Assembly (NCBI RefSeq): GCF_004122735.1 | Contig: NZ_SDIF01000001.1 | Span: forward strand, 1-64,000 | From: Streptomyces sioyaensis | GTDB taxonomy: Bacteria > Actinomycetota > Actinomycetes > Streptomycetales > Streptomycetaceae | Direction: 5' to 3' | Length of the DNA stretch: 64,000 nucleotides | In this document: in pieces, positions 14,241 through 26,535 of the stretch | Position numbering within the stretch: position 1 is the first letter of the stretch | How the letters are laid out: the number at the start of each line of letters is the position of its first letter | Notes under the pieces: model-generated | Told to the model about the DNA's origin: nothing | The model's input: the letters and a program-made list of their open reading frames with translations, nothing else | The model's database searches: none | Made by a program: the position numbers and the translations under genes

Positions 14241-14852
14241 TCAGATCTCGGGGAAGGCGTCGGGGACGCCGAGCGTCCCCGCGACGGCCCGCCAGATGGC
14301 CGCCTGGGCGGCCGCGAGGTCGATCCTGGGGTCGCCCAGCATCAGCCGGATGCCGAATCCGTCGCTCAGCGCGAGCAGCAGCGAGCTGGTCGCGTCGACG
14401 TCGCAGTCGCGGAATTCGCCCGCCTCGATGCCCCGCCGGATGGCTCGGGCGAGCCAGATGTGCAACTGGTCGTAGAGATCGACGGCGAGTTGCTGGGCGG
14501 TCTCGTCGCGCAGGGCCCTGACCCACAGTTCCTGCCACAGCCGCCAGTCCTGCCGCAGCTCCGGGTCCGTGGGCAGCATGGTGTGCAGAATGCGGGCCAG
14601 GACCACCGCGGCCGGCACGGTGTCGGCGTCGCGTTCGAGATCGGTGCCGGTCTGCCCGAAGGAATGGGTCATCGCCTCGGCGAAGAGCCGCTCACGGTTC
14701 TCGAAGTGGTAGTGGAGCAGGGCCGTCGACACCCCGGCGTGTTCCGCGACCATCCGCATCCGGATCTTCTCGAAGCCGACCTCGGCGATCACTTCGCACG
14801 CGGCGGCAAGAATCCGTTCCCGCGTTTCGAGAGTGCGTCCAGCCTTGGCCAC
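14241..14852 (-). CDS. TetR family regulator
   Basis: A 203-residue TetR-type repressor. The HTH is at about residues 10-55 (TRERILAAACEVIAEVGFEKI, AGVSTALLHYHFENRERLF). The C-terminal domain (LPTDPELRQDWRLWQELWVRAL and ATSSLLLALSDGFGIRLMLGD) matches the TetR_C_6 BetI-like type. GTG at 14852 is supported by GGGGAG seven bases upstream. It lies 165 bases downstream of the NuoF-like gene on the same strand and may belong to that transcription unit. The perfect TetR-style palindrome at 16810-16827 is the only strong TetR site nearby and is the likely binding site. BetI-like C domains are often tied to quaternary-amine metabolism, which would suit the Rieske oxygenase, but that link is inference. 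Confidence 0.88.
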   Translation of the reverse strand: MAKAGRTLETRERILAAACEVIAEVGFEKIRMRMVAEHAGVSTALLHYHFENRERLFAEAMTHSFGQTGTDLERDADTVPAAVVLARILHTMLPTDPELRQDWRLWQELWVRALRDETAQQLAVDLYDQLHIWLARAIRRGIEAGEFRDCDVDATSSLLLALSDGFGIRLMLGDPRIDLAAAQAAIWRAVAGTLGVPDAFPEI

Positions 14853-15016
14853 GTGAGTGCTCCCCGGGTCGGTGTCGAAATCCTCGCGGGCGCGGCGGGC
14901 CCGTCCCGTGCCATCTTCCCGCATCGCCTTTCCCGGTCGCCCGCGGCCGGTGCGCCCCGGTGGCGATACGACGGCGGCCTCGAAGCCGGGGCCGGGTACG
15001 CGGATCACGGCCGGTT

Positions 15017-16306
15017 TCAGCCGGGGCAGGGGGCGGAGCACGGGCGGTGGACGGGGCGGCCGGCGACGCGGGGGACGGCCACGGTGAGCGGCCCGGCGGG
15101 CGCCGGGCAGGCAGGGCAGGGGGCGTCGAGGTGGGACCGGACGAGGTGCGGAAAGGCCCGCAGGAGGCTGCCGGCCGTACGCACGGCGGCGTCCAGCAGC
15201 CCGCAATCGCCGCGGCCGGGCAGTGCGGTGGCCCGGCGGTGCAGCCGGGAGACGAGGCCGGGGGCGGCCGTGCCGGTCGTCAGCGAACCGACGTCGTCGC
15301 GGATCGCGCCGGTGCCCGCGACGCAGCCGCCGCACCGCCGTGCGCTCTCGGCGGCGAGGTGGGCGACGACGGCGGAGGCGAGGGAGACCGGGCACTCCTC
15401 GGGGCCGAGGAAGCGGATCGCCCCGCAGCCCAGCTCCGTGCCCGCGGCCGCGAGGGTGTCGGGGCCCAGTGCGAGGTCGAGGAAGTGGGGCCCGATCAGC
15501 CCGCCGAACCGCCCGCCCACGAGGGCGCCGGCCGGCTCGGGGGTGCCCTGGGCCCGGGCCAGGGTCCGCAGGGTGCAGCCGTAGGGCACCTCGGCGAGCA
15601 GCGGATCCGCGCCGCCCCCGGCGAGGGTCACCAGCGTGCTGCGCGCGGTGTGGCGGCCACCGTCCGGCCGGGCGGCGAGGAGCGCGATACGGGCCAGGGT
15701 CTCGACATTGGCGACGAGGGTGGGGGCGCCGCCGACGCCCTCCCCGTGGGGGCTGGGCGGTTCGGCGGCGGCGAGAGCGGGTCCGCCGTTGCCCCGCCGG
15801 ACCACCGCGGACACCACCGCGGACTCCTCCCCGGCGACATGGGCATACCGGGTCTCGACGACCTCCACCGGCAGCCGCGGCGGCCGCTCGGCGAGCGCGC
15901 GGCGCACCCGTTCGCCGGCCGCGGCGTCGGAGAGGTACACAGCGCCGCGCCGCGCACCGGTGATCTCCGCGGCCCGCAACAGCCCGTCCAGAACCAGATG
16001 CGGCCGGGCCCGCAGCAGCCAGCGATCCTTGACGGAACCGGGCTCGCCCTCCTGGCCGTTGGCCACGACGACGGTGTGGCGGTCTCCGGCATCACGGACC
16101 GCCCGCAGTTCGGCGGCGGTGGGGGAGCCGGCGCCGCCGCGGCCGCGCAGACCGGCGGCGTCGATACCGGCGAGGAGCTCGGCCGCCGCGGTCGTCTCGC
16201 GGTAGCCGCCGACGGCGGCGTACGCCTCGGCGTCCTCGGTCACCCCCGGCGCGGCACCGAGCACCCCGGGCGTCCCCCGGGGCGTCAGAGAGACGATCCC
16301 GGTCAT
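15017..16306 (-). CDS. NuoF-like NADH-binding flavoprotein
   Basis: A 429-residue homologue of the 51-kDa (NuoF) module of complex I and soluble hydrogenase/formate dehydrogenase diaphorases. The NADH/FMN motifs are kept: GLRGRGGAGSPT, ANGQEGEPGSVKDRWLL and VAGEESAVVSAVV, then VANVETLARIALL and an SLBB-type region. The [4Fe-4S] N3 motif is altered. The usual first Cys of the Cys-x2-Cys-x2-Cys run is replaced (ESARRCGGCVAG), leaving two Cys there plus the distant Cys in GDCGLLDA. It has no NuoE or NuoG partner here. ATG at 16306 has GAAGG six bases upstream. It follows a 135-residue gene by 19 bases and lies divergent from a Rieske oxygenase to which it could supply electrons. Confidence 0.8.
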   Translation of the reverse strand: MTGIVSLTPRGTPGVLGAAPGVTEDAEAYAAVGGYRETTAAAELLAGIDAAGLRGRGGAGSPTAAELRAVRDAGDRHTVVVANGQEGEPGSVKDRWLLRARPHLVLDGLLRAAEITGARRGAVYLSDAAAGERVRRALAERPPRLPVEVVETRYAHVAGEESAVVSAVVRRGNGGPALAAAEPPSPHGEGVGGAPTLVANVETLARIALLAARPDGGRHTARSTLVTLAGGGADPLLAEVPYGCTLRTLARAQGTPEPAGALVGGRFGGLIGPHFLDLALGPDTLAAAGTELGCGAIRFLGPEECPVSLASAVVAHLAAESARRCGGCVAGTGAIRDDVGSLTTGTAAPGLVSRLHRRATALPGRGDCGLLDAAVRTAGSLLRAFPHLVRSHLDAPCPACPAPAGPLTVAVPRVAGRPVHRPCSAPCPG

Positions 16307-16325
16307 GCCCAACCTTCGATCCCGG

Positions 16326-16733
16326 TCATGCCCGGTCTCCCTCCGGTGGGGCGGTGCGCAGGGTCCGCACCGCGCTTTCCAGGGCTCGGCGGTCGGCGGC
16401 CGTCCGGCCGTACCCGGTTCCGGGCAGGCCGATCAGCATGCGGTGGTGGTCGAGCACGACCTCGGCCGCCCGGAGTGCGGCTCGCCGGTCGCCGGGGCGG
16501 CCGCCGGCGACGGCCGTCACCAGCCCGGTCACCTCGGCGAGATAGCGCAGCCAGCGCTGCTGGGTGCCGCGCAGGATCAGCCGCTCGACGCGGTGCCGCT
16601 CGGCCCGCGCCGCTTCGGCGGGGGTGTGGGCCATGTCCCGTACGGCGGTGCGCAGGGCCGCGACGGTGGTGGGCAGTTCCCGCTCCGGTTCGGGGGTGAG
16701 TCCGAGCCAGACCAGGCTCCGACGACGGCTCAT
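16326..16733 (-). CDS. Conserved hypothetical protein upstream of NuoF-like gene
   Basis: A 135-residue, strongly helical, Arg/Ala/Leu-rich soluble protein with no cysteine, no membrane segment and no motif I can name. ATG at 16733 has GGAGG about six bases upstream. The stop is 19 bases before the NuoF-like start, so the two are almost certainly cotranscribed. It is the first gene after the TetR-type palindrome. Because the pair is conserved in order only with the flavoprotein here, a small accessory or regulatory subunit is possible, but no function can be read. Confidence 0.65.
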   Translation of the reverse strand: MSRRRSLVWLGLTPEPERELPTTVAALRTAVRDMAHTPAEAARAERHRVERLILRGTQQRWLRYLAEVTGLVTAVAGGRPGDRRAALRAAEVVLDHHRMLIGLPGTGYGRTAADRRALESAVRTLRTAPPEGDRA

Positions 16734-16809
16734 GAGTGCCTCCGGGCGCAGGGTGTCCGGCCGCGTCCGGGCCCCCTGCGACGGAGCACCGGAGCGGCAC
16801 CTCCACTAC

Positions 16810-16827
16810 ACTAACTAATCAGTTAGT
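16810..16827. promoter_or_regulatory. TetR-type palindromic operator
   Basis: ACTAACT-AATC-AGTTAGT is a perfect 7-base inverted repeat with a 4-base centre. It lies 77 bases upstream of the hypothetical/NuoF-like genes (minus) and 147 bases upstream of the Rieske gene (plus). ACTAACT/AGTTAGT half sites are a common TetR-family operator type. It is the AT-richest spot in the divergent region and could cover promoters in both directions. Confidence 0.65.
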
Positions 16828-16973
16828 CAGGACACAACCCTGACGTCGCTGAACCCGCCGGTGTGCCGACGACCGGCCAATGGCTCAGCGCAGATCCCGG
16901 CAGGCCGGTACGGGGCCCGGCACGGCGCCCGGCACCGTCTCGACCCGCCCGTGCGGCACGGAGGAGTGATTCG

Positions 16974-18125
16974 ATGCGCCCTGAAGCCACCACCACGGTC
17001 CCGGAACAGGACGTCCCCGGGCAGGCACTGCCCGCCCGCTACTACACCGACCCGGCTCTGGTCCCCGCCGAGACACGGCACATCTTCGCCAGGTCCTGGC
17101 AGCTCGTGTGCCATGAATCCGATCTCCCCGGCCCCGGCGCGCGGCTCGCCGCCACCGTCGCGGACCGCGAGGTGCTGGTCGTGCGCACCGGGGACGGCAC
17201 CCTCGCCGGACACCTCAATGTGTGCCGGCACCGCGGCACCCGTCTGGTCTCCGCGCCCGAACCGTCCGGCAAGGCCATCCGGTGCCCGTATCACGGCTGG
17301 ACGTACAAGCTCGACGGACGGCTGGTCGGCGCGCCCGAGGCACGCCAGATCCCCTGTCTGGACAAGCCGGCGCTCGGTCTCTTCCCGGTCCGGGTCGAGT
17401 CGTTCCTCGGGTTCGTGTTCGCCAACCTCGACCCGGACGCGGTGCCGCTGGCGGAGCAGTGCGCCCAACTGGCCGCGGCCGTCGGCCACTACGCGGGCGC
17501 CGACCTGGTACCGGTGGGCCGCGGCCGCATCCACGATCTGGCCGGCGCCGAGGTGCAGCAGGCCAACTGGAAGGTCACGGTCGACAATTACCTGGAGGGC
17601 TATCACATCCCGGTCGCCCACCCCGGGCTGATGCGCCTGCTCGACTACCGGCGCTACACCTGCGAGACCGCCGAGGCGTATGCGCTCTTCGCCTCACCGC
17701 TGCGGGACAAGCCGTCCTCGAACCGGGCCGAGCGGCTCTACCAGCGGCTCGCCTCCCCCATGCCCGGGCTGACCGAGGCGGACCGGCGGGTCTGGCGGTA
17801 CGCGGTGATCTACCCCAACACGCTCCTCGACTTCTACCCCGACCACGTACTCGCCTGGACCGCCATCCCGACGGCGGTCGACCGGGTCGCCGTCCCCGGC
17901 GCCTTCTACACCCGCCGCGGGGCCAGTGCCCGCACCCGGCTCGCCCGACGGCTCAACATCCACATCGGCTGGCTCACCAATGACGAGGACGTCGCCTTGG
18001 TGTCCCGGGTGCAAAGGGGCCTCGGCACGCCGGGCTTCGAGCCGGGTCCGCTGTCCCGCCGGGAGGCCGCGGTCGGCTGGTTCGCCGACCGGATACGCGC
18101 CGACCTCCGGGGCGCGGCGCGCTGA
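16974..18125 (+). CDS. Rieske non-heme iron oxygenase, alpha subunit
   Basis: A 383-residue ring-hydroxylating-type oxygenase alpha subunit. The Rieske [2Fe-2S] ligands are Cys84-x-His86 (NVCRHRGT) and Cys104-x2-His107 (CPYHGWTYK). The mononuclear iron site is NYLEGYHIPVAHPGL with His211 and His216, and an Asp in NDEDVALVS (Asp337 or Asp339). The NYLEGYHxPVAHPG pattern resembles choline/glycine-betaine monooxygenases and related N-demethylases more than classic naphthalene-type dioxygenases. No beta subunit or dedicated reductase is adjacent. ATG at 16974 has GGAGGAG seven bases upstream. The divergent NuoF-like flavoprotein and the shared palindrome suggest a functional unit. Confidence 0.92.
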   Translation: MRPEATTTVPEQDVPGQALPARYYTDPALVPAETRHIFARSWQLVCHESDLPGPGARLAATVADREVLVVRTGDGTLAGHLNVCRHRGTRLVSAPEPSGKAIRCPYHGWTYKLDGRLVGAPEARQIPCLDKPALGLFPVRVESFLGFVFANLDPDAVPLAEQCAQLAAAVGHYAGADLVPVGRGRIHDLAGAEVQQANWKVTVDNYLEGYHIPVAHPGLMRLLDYRRYTCETAEAYALFASPLRDKPSSNRAERLYQRLASPMPGLTEADRRVWRYAVIYPNTLLDFYPDHVLAWTAIPTAVDRVAVPGAFYTRRGASARTRLARRLNIHIGWLTNDEDVALVSRVQRGLGTPGFEPGPLSRREAAVGWFADRIRADLRGAAR

Positions 18126-19053: not shown

Positions 19054-19454
19054 GCGCCCACCTCCTCGTCGGCCCCCGGGCACCGGGCGGGTCCCGCGCC
19101 GGTCGTGGGGCGGGGCGGGGGTGGCGCCGTGGTGGGATCCGACGCTATCGGCAGGCCGGCGCGGACCCCCGGCGACACGGGCGCCGGACGGCCCCATTCG
19201 CCGATCCGGACGGCTGCCTCCGGGGCACCGCGGGCCGCGTGCCGGGCTCCGGAGGGGCGTATCCGGAGTGCGCATCCGGCCGTATCCGGGGGCCGTCCGG
19301 CGCTGTCCGACGTGCCGTCCGGCCGCGTACGGGGTGGCAGATCTTGCCCCCGGCGGCGTCGAACGCGCAGGTCACAGCCCTCGGCCGGAGGGCGGCAGGT
19401 GGCGCAATGTTGCGGCAACACCATTGGCCGGATCCCGTCGGTATGGTCCACCGC
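19054..19454. other. Divergent intergenic region, EamA / GntR
   Basis: About 400 bases without a supportable gene. The half near the GntR gene holds the imperfect palindrome at 19405-19426. No clear -35/-10 pair or RNA gene was recognised. Confidence 0.45.
19405..19426. promoter_or_regulatory. Imperfect palindrome before gntR
   Basis: CAATG at 19405-19409 and CATTG at 19422-19426 flank an inner TTGCGGCAA (19410-19418), making nested inverted repeats about 30 bases before the GntR start. A GntR-type autoregulatory site is plausible. The GntR gene has no clear Shine-Dalgarno, so this also overlaps its probable promoter. Confidence 0.35.
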
Positions 19455-20225
19455 ATGCCAGCCGAACGCACCCGCCAGCACACCACTCCGGTAGCGGCCG
19501 CCCGCCGTCGCCGGCTCCGCGCGGACCGCGCCCGGCAGCTCGCCGACCTGCTGCGCCATCAGGTGCTCGCGGGCCGCTTCCCCGACGGCGTACTGCCGCA
19601 CGAGGAGGTGATCGGCGCGGATTACGGCGCGTCGCGCAACACCGTGCGCCAGGCTCTGGACCTGCTGCGTGCCGAACAGCTCGTGGAACGCCAGCCGGGT
19701 GTGGGCACGGTCGTGGTGTGCCGCAAGTACCCGCATGCCCTGGACCGGTTGCGGGGTCTCGCCGAGACCCTGCACGCGCACGGCAGGGTCACCAATGAGG
19801 TACGCACCATCAACCCGGTCGCCGCACCGGCCCCGGTGGCGGACCGGCTGCGGATCCCGCCGCGCGGCGAGGTGCTGTACGTGGAGCGGCTGCGCAGGCT
19901 GGACGGTCTGCCGCTGTCCCTGGACCTCACCTATGTCCCGATGGGCCTCGGTCTGTCGCTGCTCGACGCCGACCTGGAGAACAACGACGTGTTCCGGCTG
20001 ATCGAGGAGGCCGCCGGACAGCCGCTGGGCACCGCCGAGATCAGCCTGGAGGCCGTCAACGCCGATGCCCACTCGGCTGCCGTGCTGGAGGCTCCCCGCG
20101 GCACGGCCCTGCTGATGCTCGAACGGCTCACCCATCTCGCCGACGGCTCCCCCGTCGACCTGGAGTTCATCCGCTTCCGCGGGGACCGCCTCACCATGCG
20201 GGGCCTGTTGCACCGCACGCTCTGA
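19455..20225 (+). CDS. GntR/HutC family regulator
   Basis: A 256-residue regulator of the HutC subfamily. The winged helix-turn-helix spans about residues 24-92 (ARQLADLLRHQVLAGRF, EVIGADYGASRNTVRQALDLL, ERQPGVGTVV). A UTRA effector domain follows (about 105-250; GEVLYVERLRRLDGLPLSLDL, LTHLADGSPVDLEFIRFRGDR). It sits 88 bases upstream of the ferredoxin gene and heads the ferredoxin/ABC/flavoprotein cassette, so it is the likely regulator with the imported substrate or a product as effector. ATG at 19455 is taken; an in-frame ATG at 19443 is an alternative. Confidence 0.88.
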   Translation: MPAERTRQHTTPVAAARRRRLRADRARQLADLLRHQVLAGRFPDGVLPHEEVIGADYGASRNTVRQALDLLRAEQLVERQPGVGTVVVCRKYPHALDRLRGLAETLHAHGRVTNEVRTINPVAAPAPVADRLRIPPRGEVLYVERLRRLDGLPLSLDLTYVPMGLGLSLLDADLENNDVFRLIEEAAGQPLGTAEISLEAVNADAHSAAVLEAPRGTALLMLERLTHLADGSPVDLEFIRFRGDRLTMRGLLHRTL

Positions 20226-20238
20226 GCCCCGCCGCCCG

Positions 20239-20281
20239 CTCCTCCCCTCCGCTCCCTTCTCCTCCCTTCCCTCCCTTCCTC
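20239..20281. repeat. Polypyrimidine tract with G-quadruplex potential on the minus strand
   Basis: A run of about 43 bases made almost only of C and T (repeating CTCCC and TTCC words) fills the gap between the GntR stop and the ferredoxin. The complementary strand has at least four runs of three or more G within 35 bases, which meets the usual G-quadruplex pattern. It could also be a simple low-complexity spacer. Confidence 0.6.
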
Positions 20282-20313
20282 ATCCGCTCCCGCCCGCCTG
20301 CCCGGAGACCGCC

Positions 20314-20541
20314 ATGCCTCTTGTGCCCCAACGCGGCGATGTGCCCGTGACCATCGACGAGTCCCGGTGCATCGACGGCTGCACGCTGTGCGTCGACATG
20401 TGCCCGCTGGACTCGCTCGCCATCGACCCGGCGAGCAACAAGGCCTACATGCACGTCGACGAGTGCTGGTACTGCGGCCCGTGCGCCGCGCGCTGTCCCA
20501 CCGGTGCGGTCACGGTCAACATGCCCTATCTGTTGCGATGA
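20314..20541 (+). CDS. 2[4Fe-4S] ferredoxin, AprB-like
   Basis: A 75-residue electron carrier with two complete cluster motifs: CIDGCTLCVDMCP at about residues 18-30 and CWYCGPCAARCP at about 51-62, eight cysteines in all. The second motif, preceded by HVDECW, and the short C tail resemble the beta subunit of adenylylsulfate (APS) reductase more than a free bacterial ferredoxin. It is encoded 13 bases before the ABC lipoprotein and in the same direction as an AprA-like flavoprotein, which is the expected redox partner. The start ATG at 20314 follows CGGAGACC. Confidence 0.9.
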   Translation: MPLVPQRGDVPVTIDESRCIDGCTLCVDMCPLDSLAIDPASNKAYMHVDECWYCGPCAARCPTGAVTVNMPYLLR

Positions 20542-20554
20542 GAGGCCTCCGTCC

Positions 20555-22006
20555 ATGAGCTCCCGACTCCCGGGCTCCCCGTCCACTCCGTTCCCCAACA
20601 CCTCCCCCGCCGGGTCCGCTCCCGCCCCCAGTTCCGCCGCCCGGCGTCCGGCCGGCCGTCGCATACTGGTGGCGGCGCTGTCGTCCACCCTGCTGATGAG
20701 CTCGCTCAGCGGCTGCGGCAGCACCGCGGACGCCTCGGACGACAAGACCGTCACCGTGACCGTCGGCTACCAGTCCAAGACCATCAACACCGTCACCGCC
20801 GGAACCCTGCTCCGCTCGCTGGGCTCCTTCGAACGTGCGCTGCGCGCCCAGGGCAGGCGCGACGGCAGGACGTACAAGGTGCGGTGGCAGGACTATGCGA
20901 CCGGTGCGCCGATCACCGCGCAGATGGTCGCGGGGAAGGTCGACATCGGCTCGATGGGCGACTTCCCGCTGCTCATCAACGCCGCCCGCGGCACGCAGCT
21001 GCACGCCCCGACCCGCCTGGTCTCCGTCACCGGCTACAACCTGCGCGGCGCGCTCAACACCATTGTCACCAGGCCCGGTTCGCCGCTGCGCTCGCTGGCG
21101 GACCTGCGCGGCAAGAACGTCTCCAGCAGCGTCGGCTCGGCCTCCGACGGCACGCTCGTCCGGGCGCTGCAGCGGGCCGGGATCGACCCGGAGCAGGGCA
21201 TCCACAAGCTCAACCAGCAGCCGGCCGTGGGGGCTTCGGCGCTGCGGTCGGGCAGCGCGGACGCCCTCTCCCAGTTCGTCGCCTGGCCTGGGCTGCTCGC
21301 CTTCCAGGGCAAGGCGCAGGCGCTCTACGACGGGGGCGCGCTCGGCCTGCCCACCTTCCACGGCGTGACGGTGCGGAACGCCTTCGCCGAACGGCACCCC
21401 GCGCTGGTGCGCGCGTTCCTGACCGCACAGCGGGACGCGACGCGCTATCTGCAGGCCCATCCGGTCGACGCCGCCCAGAAGGTCGCCTCGGCCACCGGGC
21501 TGCCGCCCGAGGTGGTCTACCTCTACAACGGCTCCGGCGGCATCGCCACCTTCGATCCCACCCTCAAGCCACAACTGCTCGCCGCACTGAAGAAGGACGT
21601 ACCGGTGCTGCGCGCGGCGAAGCTGACCGGGCCGGTCGATGTGGACTCCTTCGTCGACGACCGCTACCTCAGGCAGAGTTACGGCAGCGGCTACGCCAAG
21701 GCCGTGCGCAGCACCGCGCATCCGTCGCCGGACGAGGTGTGGCTGCGCGGCGAGGACCGTACCCACACCTTCGCCGGGCCGGCCGCGCTGCTGCGGTTCG
21801 TCGCCGCCCACCACGGCACGGTGCGGGCCGCGTACACAGCCGATACGACGACCGGCAGCCGCTGGTTCGCCGACAAGTCGGTCTGGGTGCACGACGGAAA
21901 CCGGCTGCTGCCCTTCACCGCCCGGGCCACCGCCGACGCGTGGACGCACCGGCACCGCGGGGCCCGCACCGTCAGCTACGCCGCCGCGCTGGAGCTGGCC
22001 CGGTGA
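20555..22006 (+). CDS. ABC importer substrate-binding lipoprotein with NosL-like C-terminal domain
   Basis: A 483-residue SsuA/NrtA/ThiY-type (NMT1-like) binding protein. A basic N region leads to a hydrophobic stretch and the lipobox LSGC (lipidated Cys54). The binding fold follows (VGYQSKTINTVTAGTL, GKVDIGSMGDFPLLI, LRGKNVSSSVGSASD). From about residue 385 a second domain begins. THTFAGPAALLRFVAAHHGTV, AAYTADTTTGSRWFADKSVWV and FTARATADAW align in order with NosL-family copper chaperone folds, although the NosL metal Cys motif is absent. Usual SsuA-like proteins have 310-340 residues, so this is a fusion. The stop overlaps the permease start by GTGA. Confidence 0.82.
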   Translation: MSSRLPGSPSTPFPNTSPAGSAPAPSSAARRPAGRRILVAALSSTLLMSSLSGCGSTADASDDKTVTVTVGYQSKTINTVTAGTLLRSLGSFERALRAQGRRDGRTYKVRWQDYATGAPITAQMVAGKVDIGSMGDFPLLINAARGTQLHAPTRLVSVTGYNLRGALNTIVTRPGSPLRSLADLRGKNVSSSVGSASDGTLVRALQRAGIDPEQGIHKLNQQPAVGASALRSGSADALSQFVAWPGLLAFQGKAQALYDGGALGLPTFHGVTVRNAFAERHPALVRAFLTAQRDATRYLQAHPVDAAQKVASATGLPPEVVYLYNGSGGIATFDPTLKPQLLAALKKDVPVLRAAKLTGPVDVDSFVDDRYLRQSYGSGYAKAVRSTAHPSPDEVWLRGEDRTHTFAGPAALLRFVAAHHGTVRAAYTADTTTGSRWFADKSVWVHDGNRLLPFTARATADAWTHRHRGARTVSYAAALELAR

Positions 22007-22892
22007 ACGCGCCCGCCACCACGGCCGGCACGGCCCCGCGGACGGGCCCGCGTCCGGCGCCCTGGACCCGGCACGTCCGGCGTACGGCAGCGGTCCTCGC
22101 GGCGCTCGCCCTGTGGCAGCTGCTCGCTCAGTTCCGGGTGCACCTGTGGCTGCGGTTCTCCCAGTTCCCGACGGTCACCGAGACGGCCCGGGAGTTCGCC
22201 CGCCGGCTCGGCACCGGCGCCTACTGGCAGGACGTGTCCGAAAGCCTGACCCGGATCGTCGGCGGCTTCGCCCTCGCGGCCGTACTGGGCGTCGCCGTCG
22301 GAACCGCGCTCGCCCGCTCCGCCCTGGCCTTCGACCTGCTCGGCCCGCTCCTCGAAGTGCTGCGCCCGATACCGGCGATCGCGCTGGTGCCGGTGGCGAT
22401 CCTGCTGTTCCCCAGCAATGAACAGGGCATCGTCTTCATCACCTTCGCCGCGGCGTTCTTCCCGGTCACGGTCTCCACCCGGCATGCGGTGCGGGCGCTG
22501 ACGCCGGTCTGGGAGGAAGCGGTCCGCACCATGGGCGCGGGCCGGTGGCGGGTGCTGTGGTCGGTGGTACTGCCGGGGGCGCTGCCCGGCATCCTCGGCG
22601 GGCTGTCGGTCGGGGTCGGGGTCTCGTGGATCTGTGTGATCTCCGCCGAGATGATCTCCGGTGAGTACGGCGTGGGCTATCGCACGTGGCAGGACTACAC
22701 CGTCCTCGACTATCCGGGAGTCTTCGTCGGGATGGCCACCATCGGCCTGCTCGGCCGGCTCACCTCCACGGGGGTGGAGCTGCTGGGGCGGCGCCTGACC
22801 CGGTGGCTGCCGCGGACGGCGGACGGGCCGGGCCCGCCCGCGGGCGCGCGGGTGCGGTGGCGGCGGGCCCGCGCGGTGCCGGGGGGATCCTC

Positions 22893-22896
<4 letters not shown>
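22003..22896 (+). CDS. ABC permease, sulfonate/nitrate/taurine type
   Basis: A 297-residue inner-membrane permease of the SsuC/TauC/NrtB family. It has about six membrane segments and the EAA loop that docks the ATPase (EEAVRTMGAGRWRVLWSVVLP, about residues 168-188). The GTG start at 22003 overlaps the binding-protein stop and its own stop overlaps the ATPase start, so the three genes are translationally chained. The last 25 residues are a basic Arg-rich cytoplasmic tail. The import substrate is probably a small anion or sulfonate by family, but family alone does not settle it. Confidence 0.9.
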
Positions 22897-23699
<803 letters not shown>

Positions 23700-23763
23700 A
23701 CCCGCCCCTGACCCCGTGACCGGTCACGTCCTCCGACGTGACCGGCGACCGAAAGGCACCGCC

Positions 23764-26535
23764 ATGGAGACCACGGAAGCCATGGAGATCCCCTCCCCCG
23801 ACACCGCCGAGGAACTGTCCTGCGACGTCCTCGTCATCGGCGGCGGGACCGCCGGGACCATGGCCGCGCTCACCGCCGCCGAGCACGGCGCGTCCGTCCT
23901 GCTGCTGGAGAAGGCGCACGTCCGGCACTCCGGTGCGCTCGCCATGGGCATGGACGGGGTCAACAACGCCGTCATCCCGGGCCGCGCGGAACCCGATGAC
24001 TACGTCGCCGAGATCACCCGCGCCAACGACGGCATCGTCGACCAGTCCACCGTCCGCCGGACCGCGACCCGCGGCTTCGCGATGGTACGGCGGCTGGAGT
24101 CGTACGGCGTGAAGTTCGAGAAGGACGAACACGGCGCGTACGCGGTCCGGCGGGTGCACCGCTCCGGCTCGTACGTGCTGCCGATGCCGGAGGGCAAGGA
24201 CGTCAAGAAGGTCCTCTACCGGCAGTTGCGGCGGCGCGAGATGCGCGAGCGGATCCGCATCGAGAACCGCATCATGCCGGTGCGGGTACTCACGTCCGGC
24301 GGCCGGGCGGTCGGCGCGGCCGGCTTCCACACCCGTACGGGACGGTTCGTCACGGTCCGCGCCGGGGCGGTGATCCTCGCCACCGGCGCCTGCGGCCGCC
24401 TCGGCCTGCCCGCCTCCGGCTATCTCTACGGCACCTACGAGAACCCCACCAACGCCGGCGACGGCTATGCGATGGCCTACCACGCGGGCGCCGAACTCAC
24501 CGGCATCGAATGCTTCCAGATCAACCCGCTGATCAAGGACTACAACGGCCCGGCCTGCGCCTATGTCGCCAATCCGTTCGGCGGCTACCAGGTCAACCGG
24601 CACGGTGCGCGGTTCGTGGAATCCGACTACTGGTCGGGGCAGATGATGGCGGAGTTCGCGGCCGAGGTCGCCTCCGCGCGCGGGCCGGTCTACCTGAAAC
24701 TCAGTCACCTCCCGGAGGAGTCCGTCGCCGCCCTGGAGACGATCCTGCACACCACCGAGCGCCCCACCCGGGGTACCTTCCACGCCGGGCGCGGCCACGA
24801 CTACCGCACCCACGACGTGGAGATGCACATCTCCGAGATCGGCCTGTGCGGCGGGCATTCGGCGTCCGGTGTGCGCGTCGACGACCGGGCCCGCACGACC
24901 GTGCCGGGGCTGTATGCGGCCGGTGACCTGGCCTGTGTCCCGCACAACTACATGATCGGGGCGTTCGTCTTCGGTGACCTGGCGGGCGAGGACGCCGCGC
25001 AATTCCGCGCGTACGAGGGCGAGTTGCCCGACGACCAGGTGCGCGCCGCCCATGAGCTGATCTACCGGCCGCTGCGCTCTCCCGACGGCCCGCCGCAGCC
25101 GCAGGTCGAATACAAGCTCCGCCGCTTCGTCAACGACTATGTCGCCCCGCCCAAGAGCGGTGCCCGGCTGTCGCTGGCCGTGGAGCACTTCACCCGGATG
25201 CACGCCGACATCGCCGCCATGGGTGCCCGCACCCCGCACGAGCTGATGCGCTGCGCCGAGGTCACCTTCATCCGCGACTGCGCCGAGATGGCCGCCCGGT
25301 CGTCGCTGGCCCGTACCGAGTCCCGCTGGGGCCTCTACCACGCGCGCACCGACCACCCGAAGAGCAACGACCGCGACTGGCTGCACCACCTCGACCTGCG
25401 CAAATCGACCACGGGAGCCATGGAGTTCACCGCCCGCCCGGTCGCCCCGTACCTCGTCCCGGTCGACGGGTACGCCCCCGTGGGCGGCGCCTCCCGCTTC
25501 CTCGGCGAGGTCCGTCCGGAGCAGGTCGCGACGGCGGGGCGGCGGGACACTCCACCGGTGGGGTCCCCCGGGGCGGGTGCTGTCGCGGCGACGGACGGCG
25601 GCCCGTCCGGGGCGCCCGGGACGCCTGGCGCCGACGCCGGGGACGGCACCGTGACTCCCCCGTCCCCCCGCATCCTCGAACTCCTCGCTCTCACCGAGGG
25701 GGAGCAGCCGGACCTCCCGGCGCTGCGCCCCTACCTGGCCGACCCCGACCCGGCCGTCCGCCGGGCCACGGTCGACGCGCTCACCGAGAGCGTTCCGCCC
25801 GGCACCGGCCAAGCCCTCGCCGCCGCCCTGACCGATCCCGCCCCGGCCGTACGGGCCGCGGCCGGCGCCTCCCTGCGCGAACTGGTCGAAGTCCTCCCCC
25901 CGGAGGCCGCCTTGCGCGCGCCGCTGGCCTCCGCCGCACACGGGCCCGACGCCGTCGTCCGCTCGGCTGCCGTGGACGTGCTGCGCGCGCTCGGCCTCGG
26001 CGACCGGGACCTGTTCGCCACCGCGCTGACCGACCCGGCCGTGGAGGTACGCCTCCAGGCCGTCCGTGCCCTGGTCTCCGTCGACGCCGCGCGCGACCTG
26101 CGGCGGGCCGCCGAGGACGACTCCCGTGAGGTGCGGGTGGCCGCCGCACAGAGCCTCGGTACGGTCGGCCGCCCCGAGGAGCTGGCGGCGTTCCTGCCCG
26201 ACGACGATCCCCTCGTCCGTGCCGCGGCGCTCGCGGCGCTGGCCACGGCCGGCTGCCCGCCGCCCTACGACGCGGCGGCCGTCGCGGCGCTCGGCGACCC
26301 GGCCTGGCAGGTCCGGGCCGGTGCCGCCACGGCCCTGGCGGCCGCCGGCTCCGCAACCGCCGTGGCCGCCCTCTCCACCGCGCTGGGCGACCCGCACGCG
26401 GATGTGCGCAAGGCCGCGGTGCTCGCGCTGCGCGCCCACGCCGGCCGCGCGGACGCCCGCCGGGCCCTGGCCTCGGTCGCCGACGACCCGGACGCCGATG
26501 TCCGGGCATACGCCCGCCCGGCAGCAACGGGGTGA
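23764..26535 (+). CDS. AprA-like FAD oxidoreductase fused to HEAT repeats
   Basis: A 923-residue two-part protein. Residues about 18-600 form a fumarate reductase/succinate dehydrogenase-type flavoprotein closest in layout to APS reductase alpha: LVIGGGTAGTMAALTAAEHG, the segment HSGALAMGMDGVNNAV, GAVILATGACGR, GLYAAGDLACVPHNY, and the late ESRWGLYHARTDHPKSNDRDW block. The classic fumarate reductase active-site set is not obvious. After a Gly/Pro linker, residues about 640-923 are at least eight HEAT/PBS-lyase-type repeats of about 31 residues (DPDPAVRRATVDALTES, DPAPAVRAAAGASLREL, DPAVEVRLQAVRALVSV and so on). These repeats usually mediate protein contacts. The neighbours give it a ferredoxin partner and an importer. 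Confidence 0.88.
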   Translation: METTEAMEIPSPDTAEELSCDVLVIGGGTAGTMAALTAAEHGASVLLLEKAHVRHSGALAMGMDGVNNAVIPGRAEPDDYVAEITRANDGIVDQSTVRRTATRGFAMVRRLESYGVKFEKDEHGAYAVRRVHRSGSYVLPMPEGKDVKKVLYRQLRRREMRERIRIENRIMPVRVLTSGGRAVGAAGFHTRTGRFVTVRAGAVILATGACGRLGLPASGYLYGTYENPTNAGDGYAMAYHAGAELTGIECFQINPLIKDYNGPACAYVANPFGGYQVNRHGARFVESDYWSGQMMAEFAAEVASARGPVYLKLSHLPEESVAALETILHTTERPTRGTFHAGRGHDYRTHDVEMHISEIGLCGGHSASGVRVDDRARTTVPGLYAAGDLACVPHNYMIGAFVFGDLAGEDAAQFRAYEGELPDDQVRAAHELIYRPLRSPDGPPQPQVEYKLRRFVNDYVAPPKSGARLSLAVEHFTRMHADIAAMGARTPHELMRCAEVTFIRDCAEMAARSSLARTESRWGLYHARTDHPKSNDRDWLHHLDLRKSTTGAMEFTARPVAPYLVPVDGYAPVGGASRFLGEVRPEQVATAGRRDTPPVGSPGAGAVAATDGGPSGAPGTPGADAGDGTVTPPSPRILELLALTEGEQPDLPALRPYLADPDPAVRRATVDALTESVPPGTGQALAAALTDPAPAVRAAAGASLRELVEVLPPEAALRAPLASAAHGPDAVVRSAAVDVLRALGLGDRDLFATALTDPAVEVRLQAVRALVSVDAARDLRRAAEDDSREVRVAAAQSLGTVGRPEELAAFLPDDDPLVRAAALAALATAGCPPPYDAAAVAALGDPAWQVRAGAATALAAAGSATAVAALSTALGDPHADVRKAAVLALRAHAGRADARRALASVADDPDADVRAYARPAATG

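Follow-up and report, generated by a model that had tools for sequence, protein, structure and literature searches.

A NuoF-like flavoprotein gene beside a Rieske oxygenase gene in Streptomyces sioyaensis, probably the remnant of a three-component system

Results

We investigated a Rieske oxygenase gene and a divergently oriented NuoF-like gene in the first 64,000 nucleotides of contig NZ_SDIF01000001.1 of Streptomyces sioyaensis (hereafter, the window; contig C1 of the 7.85-Mb genome G000). The breakdown of many pollutants, steroids, and quaternary amines begins with Rieske oxygenases, a good number of which have no recognized adjoining reductase gene. The Rieske protein, P0003 (Table 1), matched the Pfam families Rieske (PF00355, 6e-19) and Ring_hydroxyl_A (PF00848, 4e-35) and retains the C-x-H...C-x2-H motif, the His pair, and the bridging Glu. 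Its best sequence match among solved structures was the carnitine monooxygenase CntA, and it scored 138.1 bits against the GbcA equivalog, below the cut-off of 670. On the opposite arm, P0001 matched Complex1_51K (PF01512, 5e-27; 95.2 bits against a cut-off of 31.2) and NADH_4Fe-4S (PF10589, 8e-11; 42.1 against 23.5 bits), and its fold resembled NuoF/HydB-type chains (Z 32–35). Against the NCBIfam NuoF equivalog it scored 124.5 bits, below the cut-off of 558.65. P0002, oriented as P0001, had no match in Pfam (E ≤ 0.01) or NCBIfam (E ≤ 0.001).

Table 1. Features of the Rieske/NuoF-like locus and their positions in the window
Feature	Position	Strand	Remarks
Rieske non-heme iron oxygenase alpha subunit P0003, CntA/GbcA-like	16974–18125	+	383 aa; Pfam, NCBIfam, structure match
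NuoF-like protein P0001 with NADH, flavin mononucleotide (FMN), and Fe-S sites, apparently a degenerate version of the relatives' candidate NADH:ferredoxin reductase	15017–16306	−	429 aa; Pfam domains, fold
P0002, helical protein accompanying the Rieske family of P0003	16326–16733	−	135 aa; between P0001 and P0003
TetR-type operator palindrome ACTAACT-N4-AGTTAGT	16810–16827	.	Between divergent genes P0002 and P0003
Relic of deleted ADP-forming coenzyme A (CoA) ligase gene	14969–15008	−	40 bp; just 3′ of the P0001 stop codon
TetR family regulator, BetI-like C-terminal domain	14241–14852	−	GTG start inferred; corresponds to the last gene of the relatives' operon

The initial annotation had described a Rieske gene divergent from a NuoF-like operon over a shared TetR-type palindrome, and this arrangement was borne out. 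The NuoF-like gene indeed has no NuoE or NuoG partner, its immediate neighbors being P0002 and the TetR gene. The Rieske gene likewise appeared to have no dedicated reductase: we recognized by eye no reductase of the ferredoxin-NADP reductase (FNR) or glutathione reductase (GR) type among the open reading frames (ORFs) lying at 9–25 kb of the window, some of which were scanned with Pfam. The genome encodes three Complex1_51K proteins, namely P0001, L111, which scores like true NuoF, and a paralogue (L110, G000:C235), which is fused to a C-terminal Fer4_15 ferredoxin domain and lies beside a ferric-reductase-like gene.

Across the genus, the two genes co-occur, as the initial annotation had proposed to check. 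The Rieske orthologue was present in 28 of 295 Streptomyces genomes (78–87% identity for the other 27; next match by score, 39%), all of which were among the 30 genomes with a NuoF-like orthologue (54–70%), the two additional genomes being G039 and G085; in these searches, and in those for NuoF-like hits in the class, four to six candidates were scored per genome. The two genes are neighbors in 27 of the 28 genomes and lie near the starts of two contigs in the remaining one (G063); in G001, the NuoF-like orthologue is partial, at a contig end. Among 16 named loci (L124–L139), a NuoF-like gene stands beside the Rieske gene in 12, and L127 is cut by a contig end. The core cluster is also found in Streptacidiphilus (L134) and Couchioplanes (L135), in both of which the TetR gene is next to the Rieske gene and a 3-hydroxyacyl-CoA dehydrogenase was not detected.

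Between the NuoF-like and TetR genes, the relatives carry 5–6 kb that the window lacks, encoding a short ferredoxin, an ADP-forming CoA ligase, two acyl-CoA dehydrogenases, and, mostly, a 3-hydroxyacyl-CoA dehydrogenase. The short ferredoxin gene lies directly 3′ of the NuoF-like gene in those relatives whose sequence extends that far. The L091 ferredoxin matched Pfam Fer4_15 and has three cysteines with CX5C...C spacing; those of L106 and L204 have four. Among ten proteins of the L091 cluster scanned with Pfam, we found no FNR- or GR-type reductase, and the NuoF-like protein occupies the reductase's place. Downstream of the Rieske gene, the relatives carry PotD/B/C/A-like transporter genes (Pfam yields general ATP-binding cassette (ABC) families only, and "polyamine-type" is by resemblance), a flavin adenine dinucleotide (FAD) amine oxidase gene, and an aldehyde dehydrogenase gene. 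In L091, the last of these is followed by a HemC-like gene (porphobilinogen deaminase, named by eye; L091:17868–18812), which tblastn found in no other locus.

In the window, these 5–6 kb are deleted, and a relic of them remains. The relic is 90% identical over 40 bp to L078/L080/L103 (E 2e-9, 55.4 bits; best of 200 mononucleotide shuffles, 43.7 bits), and 26 of the 30 matches listed fall inside the CoA-ligase gene; it is a fossil of the deletion. Genes for the ferredoxin, acyl-CoA enzymes, transporter, amine oxidase, and aldehyde dehydrogenase are absent from the window. A genome-wide search, which covered the ferredoxin and the CoA ligase, found no close copy of either in G000: the best ferredoxin match was 38% identical and fused to the paralogue L110, and the best CoA-ligase match was 35% identical.

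The NuoF-like protein of the window is itself unusual. Compared with 34 window-type relatives, P0001 has changes in 13 of 115 columns that are invariant elsewhere; the next most divergent sequence has 8, and the median is 0. The corresponding counts for the window are 3 of 190 for the Rieske protein (others up to 19), 0 of 27 for P0002, and 0 of 59 for the TetR protein. Residue 61 is S in P0001, whereas the other 149 sequences have F (144) or Y (5); residue 66 is E in P0001 and K in all 149 others. We take F61, K66, and K182 to match the FMN/NADH-contacting Phe70, Lys75, and Lys202 of the Thermus enzyme; the available passages of PMC6560083 do not list these residues. With synonymous differences near saturation throughout, the ratio of nonsynonymous to synonymous differences (pN/pS) was 0.21–0.22 for the Rieske gene, 0.40–0.46 for P0002, and 0.46–0.56 for the NuoF-like gene against the five closer of nine relatives, and 0.31–0.36, 0.46–0.49, and 0.62–0.73, respectively, against the four farther ones; the same genes of L080 gave 0.11–0.18, 0.36–0.38, and 0.38–0.47 against four close relatives. 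Because of the saturation, we did not accept pN/pS as proof of decay and treat it as suggestive only.

Taken together with the deletion, the residue losses make it probable that the locus is what is left of an undescribed three-component Rieske system now in decay. A role of the NuoF-like protein as donor probably does not operate in this genome, since the ferredoxin gene is missing and near-invariant NuoF-like residues are lost; the window Rieske enzyme, if active, would need another ferredoxin or reductase. One might argue that the locus still functions fully, with the altered NuoF-like protein reducing the Rieske protein directly and dispensing with a ferredoxin: the window genes have open frames without stops, and the Rieske protein, P0002, and the regulator are conserved. 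Nevertheless, among 150 sequences S61 and E66 are unique to P0001, the number of changed invariant columns is the highest observed, and the genome combines a deletion relic with the lack of a close ferredoxin or CoA ligase, which makes this explanation very improbable.

We then considered the NuoF-like family as a whole. In P0001, Ala replaces the first Cys of the N3 motif, which we take to comprise four cysteines in canonical NuoF. All 38 window-type sequences have A or S at this position, 18 of 21 in an unassigned NuoF group have C, and the first N3 Cys is absent from both the Rieske-associated and the ferric-reductase groups. Another residue, C294, perhaps a replacement cluster ligand, was found by context label in 72 of 72 sequences of the Rieske group, 0 of 57 of the ferric-reductase type, and 1 of 21 others; the 72 comprise 38 window-type, 6 other oxygenase, and 26 small-Rieske sequences together with L319 and L320. 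In trees rooted on true NuoF, the Rieske-associated sequences formed one clade, including L319 and L320 (94 in both trees by the Shimodaira–Hasegawa-like approximate likelihood ratio test (SH-aLRT), just under the 95 mark), and those beside ferric-reductase-like membrane proteins formed its sister clade (SH-aLRT, 99 and 100). Both were quick trees without bootstrap, of 87 of 110 sequences (including 12 of 35 window-type) and 72 of 150 sequences, respectively; trees and census omit the partial or split NuoF-like sequences L096 and L136 and the named duplicates L124, L126, and L128–L130.

Contexts in the class were selected by score against Rieske-linked seeds, and their frequencies are no unbiased census. 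In 394 class genomes, we looked at each of the 36 hits that scored 450 bits or more, and 35 lay near a Rieske oxygenase or a small Rieske protein, 26 of them with the small Rieske protein alone. Of the 24 hits at 300–410 bits, we inspected 22 (G729 and G867:C12 were left out) and found no Rieske neighbor; 19 stood beside a ferric-reductase-like gene, and the other three comprised a heme oxygenase context (L319), a cluster with Pot-type, TetR, and CoA-ligase genes (L320), and one with neither context. NuoF-like and ferredoxin genes accompany Rieske alpha and beta subunits in Streptomyces (L106, L107) and Rhodococcus pyridinivorans (L204), a related Rieske alpha protein in G877 (L302), Rieske oxygenases in R. 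opacus 1CP (L203) and G629 (L249), and a 129-aa Rieske protein in the family f3 clusters and L313. Clusters of small Rieske, NuoF-like, and ferredoxin genes were L239–L248, L301, and L304–L318; those that we read (L241, L245, and part of L248) also encode a thiolase-like protein, an alpha/beta hydrolase, and amidohydrolase-2-like proteins.

The contexts are diverse: besides oxygenases and small proteins of the Rieske type, they include a heme oxygenase and ferric-reductase-like proteins (57 sequences). This diversity could indicate a general actinobacterial NADH:ferredoxin module that has no dedicated partner and stands beside many redox enzymes. This seems quite unlikely: the partner type tracks phylogeny, the two trees showing 6 and 7 label changes where shuffling gave means of 42 and 37, and the groups differ in C294. 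The initial annotation had noted that NuoF-like homologues pairing with other oxidoreductases would count against its proposal; ferric-reductase-like partners were found, but their NuoF-like proteins form the separate sister clade. We consider it somewhat more likely than not that an actinobacterial clade of complex-I-derived NuoF-like NADH:ferredoxin reductases with C294 drives several unrelated Rieske oxygenases, small Rieske proteins, and one heme oxygenase; next to the FNR and GR types, these would be a third, undescribed kind of reductase.

The small protein P0002 follows the Rieske family. Its model has five helices (predicted local distance difference test (pLDDT) score, 83) and no Cys, and a WLGLTPEPE stretch is invariant in 15 aligned members. 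Its relatives track the Rieske family even where a NuoF-like gene is lacking, as in the Mycobacterium loci L137–L139 and, as DWLGLTPE-type proteins, in L143 and L153; L142 is also among the loci listed for P0002 relatives. Possibly, P0002 is a Rieske accessory protein. A ferredoxin was ruled out by the lack of Cys and the five-helix model, and neither fold nor family searches gave a function: none of 490 PDB matches at E ≤ 10 reached 0.001 (best, 0.24), and five Pfam families at E ≤ 1 were each matched by one of the 15 members.

Allowing up to 2 mismatches, the window contains a single copy of the palindrome core, where 0.01 would be expected. Each of the 37 intergenic regions between Rieske and P0002 genes had a matching 20-bp site with ≤3 mismatches (with ≤1 in 25 of them), against 1 of 1,850 mononucleotide shuffles at ≤3, the pattern having been derived from the same sequences. 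The BetI-like TetR protein would bind this conserved palindrome and probably controls both arms.

Near P0003, the window also contains genes for a GntR regulator, an NMT1-like binding protein, a permease, and an FAD/HEAT-repeat flavoprotein (19443–26535). Similar genes are also found close to the Mycobacterium triplex Rieske cluster (L138:14737–20328; 55–80% identity), and the other Rieske loci searched gave a single weak match (L201, 27%).

Discussion

With a probability of about 0.68, we interpret the locus as the remnant of a catabolic cluster in which a Rieske oxygenase was fed by a NuoF-like and ferredoxin chain. The original cluster would have spanned roughly 17–19 kb around the CntA/GbcA-like oxygenase. 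Electrons would pass from NADH to the FMN and Fe-S centers of the NuoF-like protein, then to the short ferredoxin (presumably of the [3Fe-4S] type, judging from its three cysteines), the Rieske [2Fe-2S] center, and the mononuclear iron. The ABC transporter, FAD amine oxidase, aldehyde dehydrogenase, CoA ligase, and acyl-CoA genes suggest amine uptake and breakdown; judging from these neighbors, the substrate may be a quaternary ammonium compound.

The initial annotation had proposed a complex-I-type flavoprotein as the electron donor of the Rieske enzyme. For the relatives, co-occurrence, conserved linkage, and phylogeny support such a donor, and the proposal is partly borne out. However, the route would almost certainly be indirect, since in relatives the gene immediately downstream of the NuoF-like gene encodes a short ferredoxin; we therefore rejected the NuoF-like protein as a direct donor to the Rieske center, and in the window even the indirect route has probably ceased to operate.

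Several observations weigh against the proposed pairing. In G039, the NuoF-like gene lies in a contig interior with the ferredoxin and CoA-ligase genes (L103) and no Rieske neighbor, and the genome has no P0003 match at 1e-8. G940 (L320) carries NuoF-like, ferredoxin, and CoA-ligase genes in series, with a Rieske protein elsewhere only (30%). In two further genomes, the contig is cut where a Rieske neighbor would be expected and no close orthologue is assembled: in G085, the contig starts inside P0002 and the genome has only a distant Rieske match; in G929, the 36th class hit, the contig ends at or just beyond P0002 and no P0003 match was found elsewhere. A small Rieske protein without an oxygenase is near 26 of the 72 Rieske-group sequences, and the sister clade serves other proteins, namely ferric-reductase-like membrane proteins. 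In G848 (L319:7991–10359), the gene immediately before the NuoF-like and ferredoxin genes encodes a heme oxygenase, which speaks against strict pairing; the module may drive heme breakdown there. Conversely, all three Mycobacterium loci (L137–L139) have Rieske, P0002, and ferredoxin genes and no NuoF-like gene within the available stretch, and tblastn found none in 63 more distant Rieske loci (L140–L202). Evidently, then, the oxygenase can use other donors. The Rieske homologues examined outside the lineage had no NuoF-like neighbor, which speaks in part against the initial proposal; five of the distant loci read by eye (L140, L142, L143, L153, and L155) showed no reductase within about 5.5 kb.

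Some of these cases also fit another explanation, in which the NuoF-like protein and ferredoxin serve a different step of the same cluster, such as keeping the acyl-CoA dehydrogenases or the CoA-ligase pathway in redox balance, with the Rieske enzyme supplied by housekeeping ferredoxin reductases. The linkage to a CoA ligase without a Rieske gene in G039 and in G940, where Pot-type genes and a TetR gene are also present, points in that direction, as do the Mycobacterium clusters and distant Rieske loci that manage without a NuoF-like gene. However, the NuoF-like clade recurs beside Rieske genes where no such CoA ligase was seen (L106, L107, L204, L302, L203, and the small-Rieske clusters), and we consider this explanation rather unlikely.

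The proposed system resembles known ones only in part. In the available passages of Kweon et al. (2008; PMC2358900), the ring-hydroxylating oxygenase types are described with reductases of the FNR or GR kind. Among them, the type V three-component system combines an oxygenase with a short ferredoxin carrying the CX5CXnC key of a [3Fe-4S] cluster, which the L091 ferredoxin may share; its reductase is of the GR type, whereas the one proposed here is NuoF-like (FMN/Fe-S). Aligned with CntA, a Group V Rieske enzyme according to the passages available from PMC7948474 and PMC10952381, P0003 shares the bridging Glu at the E205 position and has Gly at the Cys206 position; CntB, as described there, is one FMN/[2Fe-2S] reductase, whereas here the NuoF-like protein and, in relatives, the ferredoxin are separate. 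P0001 shares the FMN- and NADH-binding fold of complex I NuoF and HydB/NfnB-type subunits, but unlike complex I NuoF it has no adjoining NuoE or NuoG and lacks the first N3 Cys, and in relatives a single-cluster ferredoxin comes next. Actinobacterial ferric-reductase-like clusters with ApbE (L205–L207) also have a NuoF-like gene followed by a short ferredoxin gene; their partner, however, is a membrane protein, and their NuoF-like proteins fall in the sister clade without C294. By title or abstract start, we found no paper linking a NuoF-like protein to a Rieske oxygenase (subscription papers were outside the scope).

The locus also cautions that an oxygenase–reductase pair from one genome may be a decayed remnant. 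If the third reductase type proposed here is real, it would give orphan oxygenases partners that can be tested, among them redox chains for biocatalysis, and it would mean that a respiratory module has been reused to drive oxygenases.

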